The notes beneath the pieces were generated by a model that did no database searches, was not told the DNA's origin, and was given only the letters and a program-made list of their open reading frames with translations. Positions 46,452-62,548 of a stretch of DNA of 64,000 bases are shown here, one piece after another. Each line of letters begins with the position of its first letter. Positions within the stretch are counted from its first letter, which is position 1. The DNA is from Cycloclasticus sp. 46_120_T64 (GTDB taxonomy: Bacteria > Pseudomonadota > Gammaproteobacteria > Methylococcales > Cycloclasticaceae), in contig MAAM01000001.1 in NCBI GenBank assembly GCA_002162695.1, forward strand, positions 124,001 through 188,000, read 5' to 3'. A program made the position numbers and the translations under genes.

Positions 46452-47741
46452 CTAATCATTGAGGCGGTATTCTATATAAGCTTCGTCGCGCAATTTGGTT
46501 AACCAGGCTTCAATGGCCGCATCGGCCTTGCGTTTTTGTAATTGTGAGCGAGCCTGAGCTTTGCGCATTAATTGAGTATTGTCTTGTTGTTCGCGACCTA
46601 GGACTTGGATCAAGTGCCAACCAAACTGGCTTTGAATAGGCTCGCCAACTTCATTGATTGCAAGTTTATTCATTGCTTCTTCAAAGGCGGGAACGAGTGC
46701 ACCGGGTTGTACCCAATTGAGGTCGCCGCCAGTAATGGCAGAACCTCGATCTTCCGAGTTTGCGCGTGCTAAGGTGGCGAAATCATCACCGTCAGCGATA
46801 CGTTGTTTAAGCCCTAATAGACGTTTCTCAGCAGCTTGATCGCTGACTAAGGCGTTGATCTTAATTAATATATGGCGGACATGGGTTTTAGTGACGATTA
46901 CTTTTTTCGGTCCACGAACCGAAAATAACTGAATAATATGGAATCCGCTGGGACTTTGAATTGAAGGCGAAATATCGCCTTGTTGCATTTTTTCCACGTA
47001 GGGTTTTAGTAAAGATGGCATTTGAGTGAGCTTCATCCAGCCGAGGTCGCCGCCTTCTAATGCATTGCTGGCGTCGGATTGGCTGATTGATACGGTCGCA
47101 AATTTCTTACCCGCTCGTAATTGCTTTAGCAGTTGATCGGCTTTTTGCTCGGCTTGCTGAATTTGTTGGCTAGTGGCGTTTTCAGGGGTGGCAATGAGGA
47201 TATGCCCAAGGTGGTACTCACTGGATTGGTCGGCATTGTTTTGTTCTAGCAGTTTTAAGAAGCTGTTTACTTCTTGTTCAGATACCTTGACTTCGTGGTG
47301 TACGAAGCTTGATTGAATACGTCTGACCAGTATTTGCTCGCGCACCGATTGTTTGAAGGCTGGTAAGCTAATGTCGTCTTTTGCTAACACTGCTACAAAT
47401 TTGTCGATACTCAGTTTATTGCTGCTGGCAATGCGCTCGATGGCGGCATCAACTTCAGTTGTCGTGATGTTTATGCCACTACGCCGGGCGATTTGTAACT
47501 GTAATTCGGTGATGATGATCTTATCGAGTACGCGTTTTTTTATATCGTTGGCGGATAGCGCAGCTCGTTGTTCAGGTGACATGCGCTGGTACATTTGTTT
47601 GATTTTCTCATCGAGCTGGTTTTGCAAGATGACGCTTTGGTCGACAACCGCGATAATGCGATTAACGGAGTCGTTAGCAAGGGTTACAGAGCAAGTCAGA
47701 GTTAATAATAAGCTGAGTATGGCGGGTTGCAATCGTTTCAT
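46452..47741 (-). CDS. surA: Periplasmic peptidyl-prolyl isomerase chaperone SurA
   Basis: A 429-residue outer-membrane-protein chaperone. The signal peptide (about residues 1-22) has a cleavage region VTLA-NDS. The N-terminal chaperone domain is followed by two parvulin domains (about 170-275, around YHLGHILIATP, and 283-385, around THVRHILIKI), then the C-terminal helix. The length matches E. coli SurA (428). It helps fold beta-barrel proteins, including LptD, which is encoded just upstream. Confidence 0.97.
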   Translation of the reverse strand: MKRLQPAILSLLLTLTCSVTLANDSVNRIIAVVDQSVILQNQLDEKIKQMYQRMSPEQRAALSANDIKKRVLDKIIITELQLQIARRSGINITTTEVDAAIERIASSNKLSIDKFVAVLAKDDISLPAFKQSVREQILVRRIQSSFVHHEVKVSEQEVNSFLKLLEQNNADQSSEYHLGHILIATPENATSQQIQQAEQKADQLLKQLRAGKKFATVSISQSDASNALEGGDLGWMKLTQMPSLLKPYVEKMQQGDISPSIQSPSGFHIIQLFSVRGPKKVIVTKTHVRHILIKINALVSDQAAEKRLLGLKQRIADGDDFATLARANSEDRGSAITGGDLNWVQPGALVPAFEEAMNKLAINEVGEPIQSQFGWHLIQVLGREQQDNTQLMRKAQARSQLQKRKADAAIEAWLTKLRDEAYIEYRLND

Positions 47742-47816: not shown

Positions 47817-50513
47817 TTATTGCTCGGGTATTTGGTAACCTAAAATACCTTCTTCGAGGAAAGAATCTAGTTTTTCACCAAAGCTGGTCAGTCCTTTGAG
47901 TTCGAACTGGAAGAAGATGCCTTGTTTAGGTTCTTCATCGAGGGCGTCGTTGACGTATTGACGCGCAATAACGCGTAAACGCCAGCAGCAAGTATCTTTT
48001 TCAAGACCGAGGAAGGTATCGAGCGCTACGTTGTGTTCTTCTGAGTAATTCCAACGTCCTACCGTGCTCCATTCTTTATTGATTGGCCACTTGAAGGATA
48101 GGTCGGTTTGCTCAATATCGTTAGAGTGACCCAAGCTATCAACCGTACCCGCATAGCGTGAACGATAGGTGGCATTGAATAGGCGGTTTGCGCCATCCCT
48201 ATAATGTAGTCCTAGTGTCGCTTTTTGGGTAATGCCGGCGTGTGGGTCGTACTGGAAGGCGGAGCGAGCAGACCAGTTATCGGTGATCTTTGTTGAAAGC
48301 TCGGCTACGAGATCGGAACTGTCTTTGTTAATTGTTTTACTGTTTGCATTAAGCCCTACCTGCAGATCATCGAAATAAACGATCGTACCGAGGCTGGCTC
48401 GCAGTCGCTCTTTACCGGTGTCAGCTTCGATAAATCTTGAGGTGACGGCTAAGGTCAGCTGATTTGCATCACCGACTCGATCGGCGCCGGAAAAACGGTT
48501 TTCTCGGAAGAGTTGGTTGTAGCTGAAGTCGTACTCAGAACTATCGAAGAGGGGTATCTCATCTTGTTTTTCATAAGGAACATATAAGTAAAACGCACGC
48601 GGTTCTAAGGTTTGGATCATACCACCGGCAAGCTTTAGCTCCCTTTCAAAGAACAGACCAGAGTCTAGGGATAGTATCGGCAGGGTGCGTTCAATATGAT
48701 TGCTCACGCCGCTAGCCTGTTTATCTAAGCGGTAACTGGTATGGCGAACACTCAGTTTAGGGGTGATGAAGCCCGCAGGGTTACGCAACGGCGCACTGAT
48801 GCTGGGTTGTAGGTCGATTCGCTTGGCGGTGGTGGCGCTGCTGTGGTCAAAATAGACAAATTCGTTACGCATATTAACTTTGGCGATGTCGAATACGGTT
48901 TGTTCGTTGAGGTTAAATAGGAGCTGAGGTAACCGACGGTGGGGGCGTGAGGCCTTGCTGATCGTTTCATCAATCGAATCGTAATTATCAATCCTCGTTA
49001 ACAGTCTCCAGTTGTCGGCACGATAATTCAAGTTAGCATGGCTTTTTAGGTAGCGGTCGCTGGAGATGCTAAGGCTGTTGCCAAAATCTTCTAGGTAGTC
49101 ATCGTCCGACAGGGCCTTTAGTTCAATATCCGATGTTAACCGTGAGTTCCAACGACTTTCATCTTCGAATGTGAACTGGCCTCGAAACTCTTCAGTGTCG
49201 GTGTCATTGAGTGCTTCAAATGATATTCTGCCTTCACTACGAGGGCTGAGGTAACGAAACTCTGTGCCGAGCATCAAGCCTCGGCTGCTCATGATACGCG
49301 GGGTAATGGTGGCGTCGTAATTAGGCGCGATATTCCAATAATAAGGCACAGCAAGGTCGGTGCCCGTGGTATCGGAATTACCAAAGGTCGGGGCTAAAAT
49401 GCCCGATTGGCGTCGATCATCGATTGGGAAGCTGATATAGGGGGTGTAAAGTAGCGGCATATCGAAGACTTCGACCCATACATTGCGCCCAGTACCCCGG
49501 CCGGTTTCGCTGTTTAATTCTAATGTTTCTGCCTGCAGTTCCCAATCATTGACGCTAGGAGCACAGGTGGTATAGATTACTTGTTTTGATCGTGTAATAC
49601 CGCGTTTTAGCAGTTGGGTAGTCTGGGTGCTGGCTCTGGCGTGGTTACCCGCGATAATCAACTGATTGTTGTCGAATTGGCCGGTGTTACCGTTGAGCTG
49701 TAATTGGGCGCGATCACTATGCATGGAAAAGCCTTGTTGCATATAGAAGACATCGCCGGATGCCGTCGCTATTTGTTGTTGATTTTGGTAGTCCACTTGG
49801 TCGGCGGTAATGAGTTGATCGGCACGTTTAATCAACACATCACCACTAAAGCGGGCATCATCCTTGTTTAAGATTTCAGCATAGTCGGCTTCGATATTGA
49901 CCTCGGCATCTAAACGCTGCTGTTGAATCGCTGGTGAGTCGGCGCTAGCTTTTTCATCAGTAATAACGTCACAGTTATCCCAAGGGTTAACCGCAAGCTG
50001 CTGCACCATTTGTTGGAACAAGGTCTCATTTCTTAGACGGCTGCTGGCGTAATCGATAAATAGACCGCTTTCGCTTGTTTCGGCGCTGACCAAGGTGCGC
50101 GCTACGGGGCTCTTCGTTTGTGCGCAATCCCAACTGCCATCGACTGCCGCTTGACAGTTCCATGCGCCCTTACTCGCTAAATCGGTGACCCTTTGGGGTT
50201 GTTGGGTAGCTGTTTTTGCGGCGACTTGTCGGCTTAATTGAACGCGTGGAATAGGCGCAGGCGGAGTTTTGTGTTGAGGTTTGTTTTGTGCACTAAGAAT
50301 GGCCTCTTTACTGACGGCAGTTTTATTAGCAGCCGTTGGTGTGGTTGGTGCTGGAGGTGCTTTGAGTAGCGGTTTTGAGCCGGCTGAACAGTCCCAGGTT
50401 TTACCGTCGTGCTGTAATGTGCAATCCCATTGAGAGTTATTGTAGGCAACTGCTTGTGAGGCGGTCAATAAAAGGCTGAAGCCAAGGATAAAATGTTTAT
50501 ACGAGCAGTTAAT
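47817..50513 (-). CDS. lptD: LPS-assembly protein LptD, probable ATT start
   Basis: Outer-membrane beta-barrel that, with LptE, inserts LPS into the outer leaflet. An OstA/LptA-like periplasmic domain lies at about residues 205-340, followed by the barrel; the barrel Cys pair in KDTCCWRL and an N-terminal Cys in NPWDNCD fit the disulfides of the family. The first canonical start, TTG 50468, would leave only a nine-residue stub before AVA. The same frame runs 15 codons upstream from ATT 50513 and encodes a good signal peptide (NCSYKHFILGFSLLLTASQA, then VA) with AAGG seven bases before the ATT. An in-frame TAG lies at 50535-50537. A Pro/Ala-rich N-terminal region contains two WxC repeats. Length is about 898 residues. 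Confidence 0.92.
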   Translation of the reverse strand: MNCSYKHFILGFSLLLTASQAVAYNNSQWDCTLQHDGKTWDCSAGSKPLLKAPPAPTTPTAANKTAVSKEAILSAQNKPQHKTPPAPIPRVQLSRQVAAKTATQQPQRVTDLASKGAWNCQAAVDGSWDCAQTKSPVARTLVSAETSESGLFIDYASSRLRNETLFQQMVQQLAVNPWDNCDVITDEKASADSPAIQQQRLDAEVNIEADYAEILNKDDARFSGDVLIKRADQLITADQVDYQNQQQIATASGDVFYMQQGFSMHSDRAQLQLNGNTGQFDNNQLIIAGNHARASTQTTQLLKRGITRSKQVIYTTCAPSVNDWELQAETLELNSETGRGTGRNVWVEVFDMPLLYTPYISFPIDDRRQSGILAPTFGNSDTTGTDLAVPYYWNIAPNYDATITPRIMSSRGLMLGTEFRYLSPRSEGRISFEALNDTDTEEFRGQFTFEDESRWNSRLTSDIELKALSDDDYLEDFGNSLSISSDRYLKSHANLNYRADNWRLLTRIDNYDSIDETISKASRPHRRLPQLLFNLNEQTVFDIAKVNMRNEFVYFDHSSATTAKRIDLQPSISAPLRNPAGFITPKLSVRHTSYRLDKQASGVSNHIERTLPILSLDSGLFFERELKLAGGMIQTLEPRAFYLYVPYEKQDEIPLFDSSEYDFSYNQLFRENRFSGADRVGDANQLTLAVTSRFIEADTGKERLRASLGTIVYFDDLQVGLNANSKTINKDSSDLVAELSTKITDNWSARSAFQYDPHAGITQKATLGLHYRDGANRLFNATYRSRYAGTVDSLGHSNDIEQTDLSFKWPINKEWSTVGRWNYSEEHNVALDTFLGLEKDTCCWRLRVIARQYVNDALDEEPKQGIFFQFELKGLTSFGEKLDSFLEEGILGYQIPEQ

Positions 50514-50543
50514 GGGACGGCCTTTTGGTTGATTCTAACGTAG

Positions 50544-50571
50544 AGTATATAAAATCGCATAGAATGGGTAA
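50544..50571 (-). promoter_or_regulatory. Promoter candidate for lptD
   Basis: On the minus strand TTACCC (50571-50566) and TATACT (50549-50544) are 16 bases apart. Transcription would begin near 50537, leaving a leader of about 24 bases before ATT 50513 and excluding the out-of-frame ATG at 50560 from the message. Confidence 0.4.
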
Positions 50572-50641
50572 TTCTTCAACGAGACTTTTATAGTTTTTTT
50601 GTATTTTAGCACGTGACTTTCGCTATTAGTTAATTTGGTCA

Positions 50642-51673
50642 ATGAGAGTGGTTTATATGGGTACAGATAGGCGTAAACAATTACTTCTAGAGTGGTTGCG
50701 GGGTGTTTTTGGCACGGATGAATTTAGTTGTGAAGCGGCCTCGGCAGATGCCAGTTTTAGGCGCTATTTTAGGCTGGTTTTACGGGGGGAGTCCTATGTT
50801 GTGATGGATGCACCGCCTGATAAGGAGGATTGCCAGCCGTTTATTGCGATAGCTAATGTATTGTTCCAGCAAGGGGTTAATACGCCGGTTGTTTTTCAGC
50901 AGTCGCTAGAACTAGGTTTTTTAGTATTAACTGACCTAGGTTCCCGTTGTTATTTAGATGAGTTGAAGCCAGAGACCGCGCCTGCTTTATACACGGATGC
51001 CGTTCAGGCCTTGCATAAAATGCATCAATTAGTGCCGGCTGAGCTTGAAATACCGGTCTATGACGCTGCTTTATTGCAGCAAGAGATGGACTTGTTCAAT
51101 GATTGGTTTTTAGTCGAATTATTAGGCATTCAGTTGTCCGCCGGGGAATTGGAAGGTTTAGCCCTTATCCAACAAAAATTACTGGAGTCGGCGTTAGCGC
51201 AGCCACAGGTTTTTGTGCATAGAGACTATCACTCGAGGAATTTGATGTGCTGTGAACTCGGCAACCCGGGGGTTATTGATTTTCAAGATGCGGTGCTTGG
51301 GCCGTTAAGTTATGACTTGGCGTCCTTATACCGAGATTGTTATATCGAATGGCCCGATGAGCAGGTGTATGCTTGGCTGGATGAGTTCCTGCAGCAACGT
51401 CAGCAAATGGGCTGTGATGACGAGTTCGACTCTGCGTGTTTTTATCAATGGTTTGACTGGATGGGGATGCAGCGGCATATGAAGGCCGTTGGTATTTTTT
51501 GTCGTTTATTATTACGCGATGGTAAGGCCGGGTATTTAAAGGATATTCCGCGTACCCTGAGCTATGTATTGAAGGTTGCTCAGGCTTACGATGAATTAAA
51601 ACCGCTGGCCGATTTGTTGTTATCACACGCGGTGGAGGCTAAGTTCGACCAGCACTTACGAGGTTTATCGTAA
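50642..51673 (+). CDS. amgK: Cell-wall sugar kinase AmgK
   Basis: A 343-residue aminoglycoside-phosphotransferase-fold kinase. VFVHRDYHSRNLM is the catalytic loop and VIDFQDAVLGP the metal-binding segment. AmgK phosphorylates N-acetylmuramate (and GlcNAc) at the anomeric carbon in the peptidoglycan recycling route that bypasses early synthesis. It is followed after one base by murU, its pathway partner, and is divergent from lptD as in Pseudomonas. ATG 50657 is an alternative start. Confidence 0.92.
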   Translation: MRVVYMGTDRRKQLLLEWLRGVFGTDEFSCEAASADASFRRYFRLVLRGESYVVMDAPPDKEDCQPFIAIANVLFQQGVNTPVVFQQSLELGFLVLTDLGSRCYLDELKPETAPALYTDAVQALHKMHQLVPAELEIPVYDAALLQQEMDLFNDWFLVELLGIQLSAGELEGLALIQQKLLESALAQPQVFVHRDYHSRNLMCCELGNPGVIDFQDAVLGPLSYDLASLYRDCYIEWPDEQVYAWLDEFLQQRQQMGCDDEFDSACFYQWFDWMGMQRHMKAVGIFCRLLLRDGKAGYLKDIPRTLSYVLKVAQAYDELKPLADLLLSHAVEAKFDQHLRGLS

Positions 51674-51674
51674 G

Positions 51675-52340
51675 ATGAAGGTGATGATTCTAGCCGCCGG
51701 TCGTGGGCAACGGATGGGGAGTTTGACCGAGCACTGCCCTAAGCCGCTATTAGAGATAAGCGGACGTAGCCTTATTGAGCACCAGTTGTTGGCGCTCAAG
51801 CAACAGGGTTTTTCCGAGTTCGTGATAAACCTGGCTTATTTAGGTGGGAAAATCAAGCAAGCCCTAGGCTCTGGTGAGCGATGGGGGGTGACGATCGAGT
51901 ATTCCGATGAAGGTGAGCTAGCGCTTGAAACCGGGGGTGGCATCCATAAGGCGTTACCGCTGCTGGGGCAGGAGCACTTTTTACTGGTGAACGCGGATGT
52001 TTGGACAGACTTTCCGTATGCCAGTTTGCGCGATCAAACGGCTAAAAAAATACATTTAGTTTTAGTGGATAATCCCCGGCATAACCATGCCGGTGATTTT
52101 CAGTTGCACGACGGTCGAGTGTTGAATGAAGGTGGTGAATGCTTGACCTATAGTGGGATAGGAGTTTTTCACCCTTCGGTGTTTGTAGCTGAATCGGCAG
52201 GGGTGTTTCCTTTGGCGCCGCTTATTCGACGGCAAATAGCCGCTGATCAGGTGAGTGGTCAGCGGCATCAAGGTGTGTGGGTTGACGTTGGAACCCCAGA
52301 GCGACTGGCATCGCTAGGATCAACGTTGCCTAGTCAATAA
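51675..52340 (+). CDS. murU: N-acetylmuramate-1-phosphate uridylyltransferase MurU
   Basis: A 221-residue nucleotidyltransferase. [20 protein letters not shown] followed by [10 protein letters not shown] is the NTP-binding signature; [11 protein letters not shown] holds the metal Asp. It makes UDP-MurNAc from MurNAc-1-phosphate, the step after AmgK in fosfomycin-tolerant peptidoglycan recycling. One base separates it from amgK. Its 3' end overlaps the convergent lipA by 11 bases. Confidence 0.92.
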
Positions 52341-61173: not shown

Positions 61174-61668
61174 TTATTGGACGTTGAGGCGGCGTCTGAT
61201 GTTACGCAGTAGAAAAAATACCAGCGGCCAAGCGGTGGCACTGGAGATGGCTTGGTACCAATAACTGTAGTTATGCTTGTAGCCTTGGTTTTCGGCTAGA
61301 TGACTGATCAACAGGGATAATAACTGCATTGCCAATAGCGATAATAGAATGAACATGGCCTGTTGCCAGAGCCGGTAGTTCCTCAGGCGTAAATAGAGTT
61401 TATGAGCAAAGAAGGCGATAATGCTGAAAATCAGCGCGTTTTGCCCCAGTAGGCTATCGCTGAGTGCATCGACTAGGAGGCCGGTGATCCAACCGGTGCC
61501 GACACTGACTTTATGCGGCAGCGCGATACACCAGTACATCAGGCTGAGTAACACCCAATTGGGCATGTAACAGGCAAGGGGGTTAGGCCAGGGGATGATG
61601 CTGAGGCCCATGGCGGCAAACAGGGTTAAGTAAATAACCGAGCTGCCGGATGATTTCTTAGTGTGCAT
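61174..61668 (-). CDS. mreD: Rod shape-determining protein MreD
   Basis: A 164-residue inner-membrane protein with about five helices, part of the elongasome with MreB and MreC. IPWPNPLACYMPNWVLLSLM, then GWITGLLVDALSDSLLGQNA, are typical of proteobacterial MreD. It overlaps the 3' end of mreC by 11 bases. Confidence 0.94.
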   Translation of the reverse strand: MHTKKSSGSSVIYLTLFAAMGLSIIPWPNPLACYMPNWVLLSLMYWCIALPHKVSVGTGWITGLLVDALSDSLLGQNALIFSIIAFFAHKLYLRLRNYRLWQQAMFILLSLLAMQLLSLLISHLAENQGYKHNYSYWYQAISSATAWPLVFFLLRNIRRRLNVQ

Positions 61669-62548
61669 TAGCGCGATTAGCTTGAGTCGCTAGCGGTGTT
61701 TTTTTGGCCGGTAATAACGGGATCGGTTGTTGTTTGCTCCACACCAGTAAAATGTTACGGGTCGTTTCGGTTTTTGCAATAGTCTGCGCCTCAGCATGGA
61801 TAAAGGCCTCACCAGGCATTGGCTGAAGTTTTGAAATGCGCGCAACGGGGTAGCCCTGAGGGAATACACCGCCCAGACCTGAAGTGATAAGCAGGTCTCC
61901 CACTTTAATATCGGCGTTATGCGGTAAATAAGGCAGGCTTAGGGTGTTTTGTGCGCCACTACCAGAGGCAATGGTTCTCAAGCCGGTACGATTGATTTCA
62001 ACGGGGATCGCGTGGTTTGGGTCGGTGATAAGGATGATTGACGAGGTGAGAGGGTGTACCTTGATGATTTGGCCAATAATACCGCTATCATTGAGTGCTG
62101 CCTGGCCTTCATATAAGTTAAAGCGGCTGCCCTTATCAATCAGTATGTGCTGCTTGTTTGGGTTTTGATTGACCTTGATCAGCGAGGCGGCAATAAATTG
62201 TTCGCCGAGTTTGAAGGACGATTCTAATAAACTATGTAGGCGAGTGTTTTCCTGTGCTAAGGCGGAAAATTTTTGTAATTTGGCTTTGAGTAATAGGGCC
62301 TCAGCCTTTAGTGTGCGATTCTGTGCAATTAACTCGCTGCGTTCTGTAGTCTGTTCGTTAAACCAGTGTTGTAGCCTTGAGGGCAGGTCGATGCTGACGA
62401 TTATCGGGTGGACGACAAAAGACAGCGCATCCTTAAGGGGTTTGAGCTGTTGGGTTTGATTGGCCAGTAGCAGCAGTAGGATGGAAATTATAGCCGCGGC
62501 TATAAAACGAGTGCTGGTCGACGGGCCCTTTGAAAACAGAGGTTTTAT
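61658..62548 (-). CDS. mreC: Rod shape-determining protein MreC, probable ATA start
   Basis: A membrane-anchored elongasome scaffold of about 296 residues: a short cytoplasmic start, a membrane helix (about residues 16-32), a coiled coil (about 65-115) and beta domains (ASLIKVNQNPNKQHILIDKG, then LLITSGLGGVFPQGYPVARI). The frame is open from the mreB stop, but it contains no ATG, GTG or TTG until TTG 61981, about 190 codons in. Starting at ATA 62548 gives KPLFSKGPS, which aligns with the E. coli MreC start KPIFSRGPS right after its Met, so ATA is the likely start, 18 bases after the mreB stop; AGG lies nine bases upstream. Calling only 61658-61981 would miss two thirds of the gene. Confidence 0.88.
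   Translation of the reverse strand: MKPLFSKGPSTSTRFIAAAIISILLLLLANQTQQLKPLKDALSFVVHPIIVSIDLPSRLQHWFNEQTTERSELIAQNRTLKAEALLLKAKLQKFSALAQENTRLHSLLESSFKLGEQFIAASLIKVNQNPNKQHILIDKGSRFNLYEGQAALNDSGIIGQIIKVHPLTSSIILITDPNHAIPVEINRTGLRTIASGSGAQNTLSLPYLPHNADIKVGDLLITSGLGGVFPQGYPVARISKLQPMPGEAFIHAEAQTIAKTETTRNILLVWSKQQPIPLLPAKKTPLATQANRANAH

Follow-up and report, generated by a model that had tools for sequence, protein, structure and literature searches.

Background

Within the 64,000-nucleotide stretch of Cycloclasticus sp. 46_120_T64 analysed here (contig MAAM01000001.1, positions 124,001 to 188,000; hereafter the window), the gene lptD has no usable ATG, GTG or TTG start, which raises the question of where its translation begins and what such a start would do. 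The original prediction, made from the window alone, offered two answers, an ATT codon at 50513 or an ATG at 50560 joined to lptD by one base missing from an AAAA run; in either case it held the TTG at 50468 to be the wrong start, and it listed mreC as a second envelope gene of the window lacking a normal start.

Results

The lptD start in the window

The product of lptD was assigned by Pfam to the LptD family through PF04453 (E 1.5e-105), PF19838 and PF03968, which cover the barrel and the N-terminal jellyroll, and the signal peptide that belongs to the family is supplied by the signal core of the form starting at ATT. Translated from this codon, the N-terminus reads INCSYKHFILGFSLLLTASQA-VAYNNS, which has the make-up of a normal signal peptide, with fMet as first residue if AUU-started and with a cleavage place judged by eye. 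From the in-frame TAG (50537-50535) to the hydrophobic core the frame lacks any ATG, GTG or TTG, and ATT 50513-50511 is the sole near-cognate start codon in that interval. Re-reading of the sequence agreed with the original placement of this ATT 15 codons before TTG 50468 and seven bases after a Shine-Dalgarno sequence (AAAAGG, 50526-50521). The form starting at TTG 50468 begins within the cleavage region and lacks the hydrophobic core, its best 10-residue Kyte-Doolittle mean being 0.17, whereas the ATT form reaches 2.34. The claim that this start is wrong is borne out. Folding of the leader RNA gave a structure that was not unusual (z -0.22), and AAAAGG can pair with CCUUUU in the signal-peptide region. 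Divergent from lptD, at 50642-52340 (+), are genes that we take to encode a phosphotransferase-type kinase and a nucleotidyltransferase, resembling the amgK-murU cell-wall recycling pair.

Table 1 Features of the lptD and mreC loci, in positions of the window
Feature	Position	Strand	Basis or remark
surA-type gene downstream of lptD	46452..47741	-	probably co-transcribed with lptD; ORF order
lptD, corrected coding sequence	47817..50513	-	898 aa; Pfam LptD (E 1.5e-105), LptD_2, LptD_N
Signal peptide INCSYKHFILGFSLLLTASQA	50451..50513	-	17 genomes share the hydrophobic core and the third-position variation
lptD start codon, ATT (mRNA: AUU)	50511..50513	-	AT[T/C] at the equivalent place in 17/18 genus genomes
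AAAAGG Shine-Dalgarno, 7-base spacer to ATT	50521..50526	-	invariant in 17/17 AT[T/C]-start genomes
TAG stop, in frame, closing the lptD frame upstream	50535..50537	-	
Promoter-like element TTGAAG-N17-GATTTT containing TATGCGATTTTAT	50549..50579	-	conservation before lptD
ATG, alternative start of the original prediction	50558..50560	-	inside promoter-like box; open in frame to lptD in 4/18 genus genomes
mreC, ATA start (62548-62546)	61658..62548	-	ATA AAA in 15/15 readable genus genomes

Conservation of the start across Cycloclasticus

The 5′ end of lptD was compared between the window genome and 17 same-genus genomes obtained by whole-genome search, the 5′ ends of G009 and G013 having been fetched separately; the LptD proteins of the genus are ~56-70% identical to that of the window. 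An AT[T/C] codon stands exactly 28 codons before a conserved Trp in 17 of the 18 genomes (15 ATT and 2 ATC, the latter in G011 and G015), and all 17 carry AAAAGG and the 7-base spacer before it. The exception, G012, is the only genome of the genus with an ATG, which lies 29 codons before the Trp. Judged by this retention, the combination of AT[T/C], AAAAGG and spacing is not a product of chance. Mean pairwise differences at the three codon positions were 0.44/0.29/0.59 over the 27 codons after AT[T/C] and 0.42/0.35/0.39 over the eight triplets before it; codon-type variation thus starts right after AT[T/C], indicating that coding begins at this codon.

These data bear on the explanation that LptD starts at a canonical codon, either further in at TTG 50468 or upstream, and that the ATT is an ordinary internal isoleucine codon. 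TTG is a permitted start codon, the one at 50468 is what gene callers would pick, and some genomes of the genus do carry upstream or internal GTG, TTG or ATG codons at lptD. Against this, not a single in-frame ATG, GTG or TTG is found from the nearest upstream stop to the Trp in six genomes (G002, G005, G006, G007, G008 and G013), none precedes the hydrophobic core in 12 of the 18, and the TTG 50468 form would lack a secretion signal. A canonical start is therefore very unlikely, and the absence of any canonical codon in six genomes, together with the invariant spacing in the 17, points to a bona fide AUH start. From comparison with close relatives, which gives the ATT strong support, we place the start of lptD at ATT 50513 (AUC in two species) with high confidence; the same comparison establishes its Shine-Dalgarno sequence, the restored signal peptide, their conservation and the failure of canonical alternatives in several genomes.

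The upstream ATG and the promoter-like box

As originally described, the ATG at 50560 opens a frame of 31 codons that ends at TGA 50467-50465, and an AAAA run lies at 50470-50473. On this rests the explanation by a sequencing error or real frameshift, in which the ATG is the true start and one base is missing from the run. The frame of the ATG closes shortly after the signal region, its product would carry a hydrophobic leader, and in four of the 18 genus genomes (G003, G014, G015 and G017) the frame reaches lptD unshifted and without a stop. In the other 14, which it does not link to lptD, the frame is closed by a stop, is out of frame, has GTG in place of ATG (G010) or was not recognised (G009). 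The distance from the box around the ATG to the ATT also varies in the genus by non-multiples of three, and no conserved shift site for the upstream ATG frame was seen in the 18 genomes, so that lptD does not qualify as a frameshift gene. Moreover, the present lptD frame agrees with the signal peptides of relatives codon by codon; this half of the original prediction falls, as a frame that already gives a signal peptide matching relatives residue by residue is in no need of the missing base, which the relatives contradict. We consider such a shift barely credible.

The ATG itself is part of CATTCTATGCGATTTTAT, within a conserved DNA box. Each of the six genomes searched has a single perfect copy of TTYTATGCGATTTTAT, at lptD, and G011 has one further copy elsewhere, carrying 1 mismatch. 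The box TTGAAG-N17-GATTTTAT, with core TATGCGATTTTAT, recurs before lptD in several families (L233-L261, L017, L019, L020), and of 40 non-genus loci (28 drawn at class level and 12 of the order) 12 have TATGCGATTTTAT, with at most 2 mismatches, close to where the lptD frame begins, as against 4 of 800 shuffled stretches. Within the box, TTGAAG-17-GATTTT is preceded by TATGC, and the box is conserved throughout lptD loci of the genus as well as in two genomes belonging to family f7 and part of the class. It is also present in G023 and G029, whose lptD clearly uses another ATG further downstream, which points to a DNA-level, promoter-like sequence and not to a start and counts further against the frameshift. 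The promoter-like pair of the original prediction is upheld in part: a consensus promoter scan of 50440-50660 returned 0 sites, so the case for a promoter is drawn from the conservation of TTGAAG-17-GATTTT before lptD. The box is best read as a putative promoter from which the transcript would begin at ~50540-50544, leaving ATG 50560 outside the mRNA, though a transcript starting upstream of 50560 may exist. As a start for lptD, the upstream ATG was rejected on account of its place in the box and its open path to lptD in only 4 of the 18 genomes.

lptD starts outside the genus

Among the non-genus lptD loci of the order, 12 of 13 have an ATG no more than 40 codons ahead of their strongest hydrophobic core, indicating that the AUU of lptD was derived in the genus; the thirteenth (L022, G018) has only a TTG before a core whose call is uncertain. 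In two genomes of family f7, lptD starts at an ATG a few codons below the promoter-like box. The ATG of G012 may be ancestral or regained, and both appear compatible with the LptD tree, which places G012, G015 and G009 at its base in an order that it does not resolve. At class level, 114 genomes were searched and the 30 top matches, less the window's own, gave 29 loci, which are not a fair sample and include one genome of the same order (G020); by a hydrophobic-core heuristic only, 27 of them have ATG, GTG or TTG within ~45 codons before the signal core. The locus of G112 is cut by a contig end. The lptD of a distant genome, G145 (L241), has no ATG, GTG or TTG before its signal core, and carries instead an ATC behind an AGAGAG-like stretch that may be an independent AUC start.

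A non-AUG start for mreC

The open frame of mreC in the window begins ATA AAA CCT where its E. coli counterpart reads ATG AAG CCA (MKPIFSRGPS), and the first ATG, GTG or TTG of the frame is at codon 196. The earlier observation that mreC lacks a normal start thus holds, with a reading frame from ATA 62548, and it extends much further than the window alone could reveal. The genus count in Table 1 omits G003 (cut by a contig end), G009 (no match) and G013 (only a second, divergent copy read). Elsewhere in the order (G018-G040), 20 of 23 genomes have AT[T/C/A] at the position of E. coli Met1, and 14 of these 20 lack any ATG, GTG or TTG in mreC between the stop and the membrane segment; of the remaining three, two have a TTG two codons earlier and one has an ATC at a spacing missed by the search pattern.

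For a class-wide view, 115 genomes were drawn and 105 gave a match, of which 100, as family representatives, were analysed; G000 and G020 were omitted as already counted in genus and order, and G085, G088 and G112 as poor or cut. The anchor position holds AT[T/C/A] in 46 of the 100 and a canonical codon in 13, and 41 did not fit the anchor, most of these having ATG, GTG or TTG nearby. Forty of the 46 AUH genes are free of ATG, GTG and TTG between stop and membrane segment, among them that of G109, which meets a contig end without a stop. Because the anchor was matched by a pattern (xKx[LI]F-like, lying 6-24 residues ahead of the membrane segment), these counts may be off by a few; the mreC loci read in genus, order and class were L036-L065 and L106-L208. 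From these alignments, mreC appears to use an equivalent non-AUG device (AUA in the window), kept over much of the class.

The copy read in G013 (L043, G013:C125) is a second, divergent mreC-like gene, ~40% identical to that of the window, and may stem from contamination or be a genuine extra copy.

Other start codons in these genomes

The positive control, infC, began with ATC in every one of the 24 genomes read, of which 15 belong to the genus (G006 gave no match), indicating that the translation machinery uses such codons in these genomes. The pcnB gene of E. coli is another with an AUU start, reportedly described by Binns and Masters in 2002. In the pcnB loci read (L209-L229), judged by eye, the genus keeps TTG or GTG at the likely start and outgroup families of the order show ATT or ATC there; pcnB as a further AUU gene of the genus was therefore not supported. 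A start census covering lptD to mreB in 11 genomes of the genus returned rows for mreC in 11, for lptD in 6 and for lipA in 6, other genes giving 0-2 rows, opposite-strand shadow frames apart. The rows of the gene that we take to be lipA were put down to overlap with a presumptive lipB.

Discussion

Taken as a whole, the locus is very probably best explained by a conserved AUU start, at which weak, IF3-discriminated initiation would limit LptD synthesis. The AUU behind a strong AAAAGG would be read by initiator fMet-tRNA with a mismatch, and IF3 would often reject the AUU initiation complexes, giving a yield that is a fraction of that from AUG; initiation at lptD would then be weak, as at infC, because IF3 discriminates against AUU. 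lptD is the probable first gene of an operon, followed by genes that we take, from E. coli gene order, to be surA, pdxA and rsmA, the first of them presumably surA by its protein sequence as well. From this position it follows that translational coupling to an upstream gene is unlikely to explain initiation, and that a weak start on the first gene would reduce LptD but not SurA. The AUU could thus set a low synthesis of LptD relative to the SurA chaperone encoded downstream on what is probably the same transcript, and LptD output could follow the IF3 level and the state of the ribosomes. This dosage and IF3 role is proposed tentatively, at somewhat less than an even chance.

A neutral origin of the AUU accepts the same start site and denies only its supposed purpose: the codon would be a real but drifted weak start, offset by the strong Shine-Dalgarno sequence and free of any regulatory role. 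The strength and invariance of AAAAGG are the pattern expected of such compensation. Yet ATT is one base from ATG, and that change has been made by only 1 of 18 diverged species, which suggests selection for a weak lptD start; mreC and infC, in addition, hold the equivalent codon class over far greater distance. Neutral drift is an appreciable possibility, if on balance a doubtful one. For the proposed regulatory role, the ATG of G012 means that a weak lptD start is not indispensable in the genus.

Well-described bacterial AUH starts are, to our knowledge, few, comprising infC, pcnB and recent cases in S. aureus. The infC gene, which has ATC in these genomes, shares with lptD the AUH codon class and a Shine-Dalgarno sequence; it is autoregulated by IF3, whereas lptD has no self-feedback loop, as it encodes an outer-membrane protein. 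The AUU and AUC starts of infC and their control by IF3 are treated as established in an excerpt of PMC5472188, in which the GTC start of Streptomyces sigR is likewise repressed by IF3 and required for correct protein proportions. That genus-wide non-canonical start, setting protein stoichiometry, is comparable to the proposal for lptD, but its codon is GTC, its product a sigma factor and its IF3 control demonstrated, where that of lptD is a proposal. E. coli pcnB, whose start is AUU according to an excerpt of PMC4245954, is a single chromosomal gene with an output limited by its start, as proposed for lptD, though a different gene. In S. aureus, as given in an excerpt of PMC13009471, AUU and AUA starts with an extended Shine-Dalgarno sequence deliver ~10-30% of the AUG yield, and cvfC1 (AUU) and ccpN (AUA), like lptD, have conserved non-canonical starts behind a strong Shine-Dalgarno sequence, with the lowered yield measured there. 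These are regulatory genes of a Gram-positive organism with an extended Shine-Dalgarno sequence, in contrast to lptD, which encodes an essential outer-membrane protein. In E. coli K-12 the orthologues of lptD and mreC both start at ATG, and Met1 of E. coli MreC aligns with the AUA of the window.

AUH starts are thus of an already known kind, and a full-text search of open-licence papers found none on a non-AUG start of lptD or mreC, the excerpt of PMC11445065 dealing with GTG and ATG starts of carbohydrate regulators; neither the genus-wide lptD case nor the class-wide mreC case was found in that literature, and of the two the mreC case is the more unexpected. Through a whole genus lptD, which is essential for outer-membrane biogenesis, would stand on an AUH start. 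Ordinary gene-finding software would misplace the starts of both genes, so that start annotation, proteomics and gene constructs for lptD and mreC would be wrong in many species; if the mreC device is real, it was overlooked because gene callers refuse ATA, ATT and ATC. More speculatively, and on present evidence improbably, the AUH starts of infC, mreC and, in the genus, lptD may form one IF3-responsive set, in which free IF3 would tune the cell-wall elongation scaffold and the LPS-export pore together and so couple envelope growth to the translation apparatus, the mreC part being an ancient device in nearly half of gammaproteobacterial families. The AUH starts of lptD and mreC would offer a ready test of IF3 control over envelope growth.
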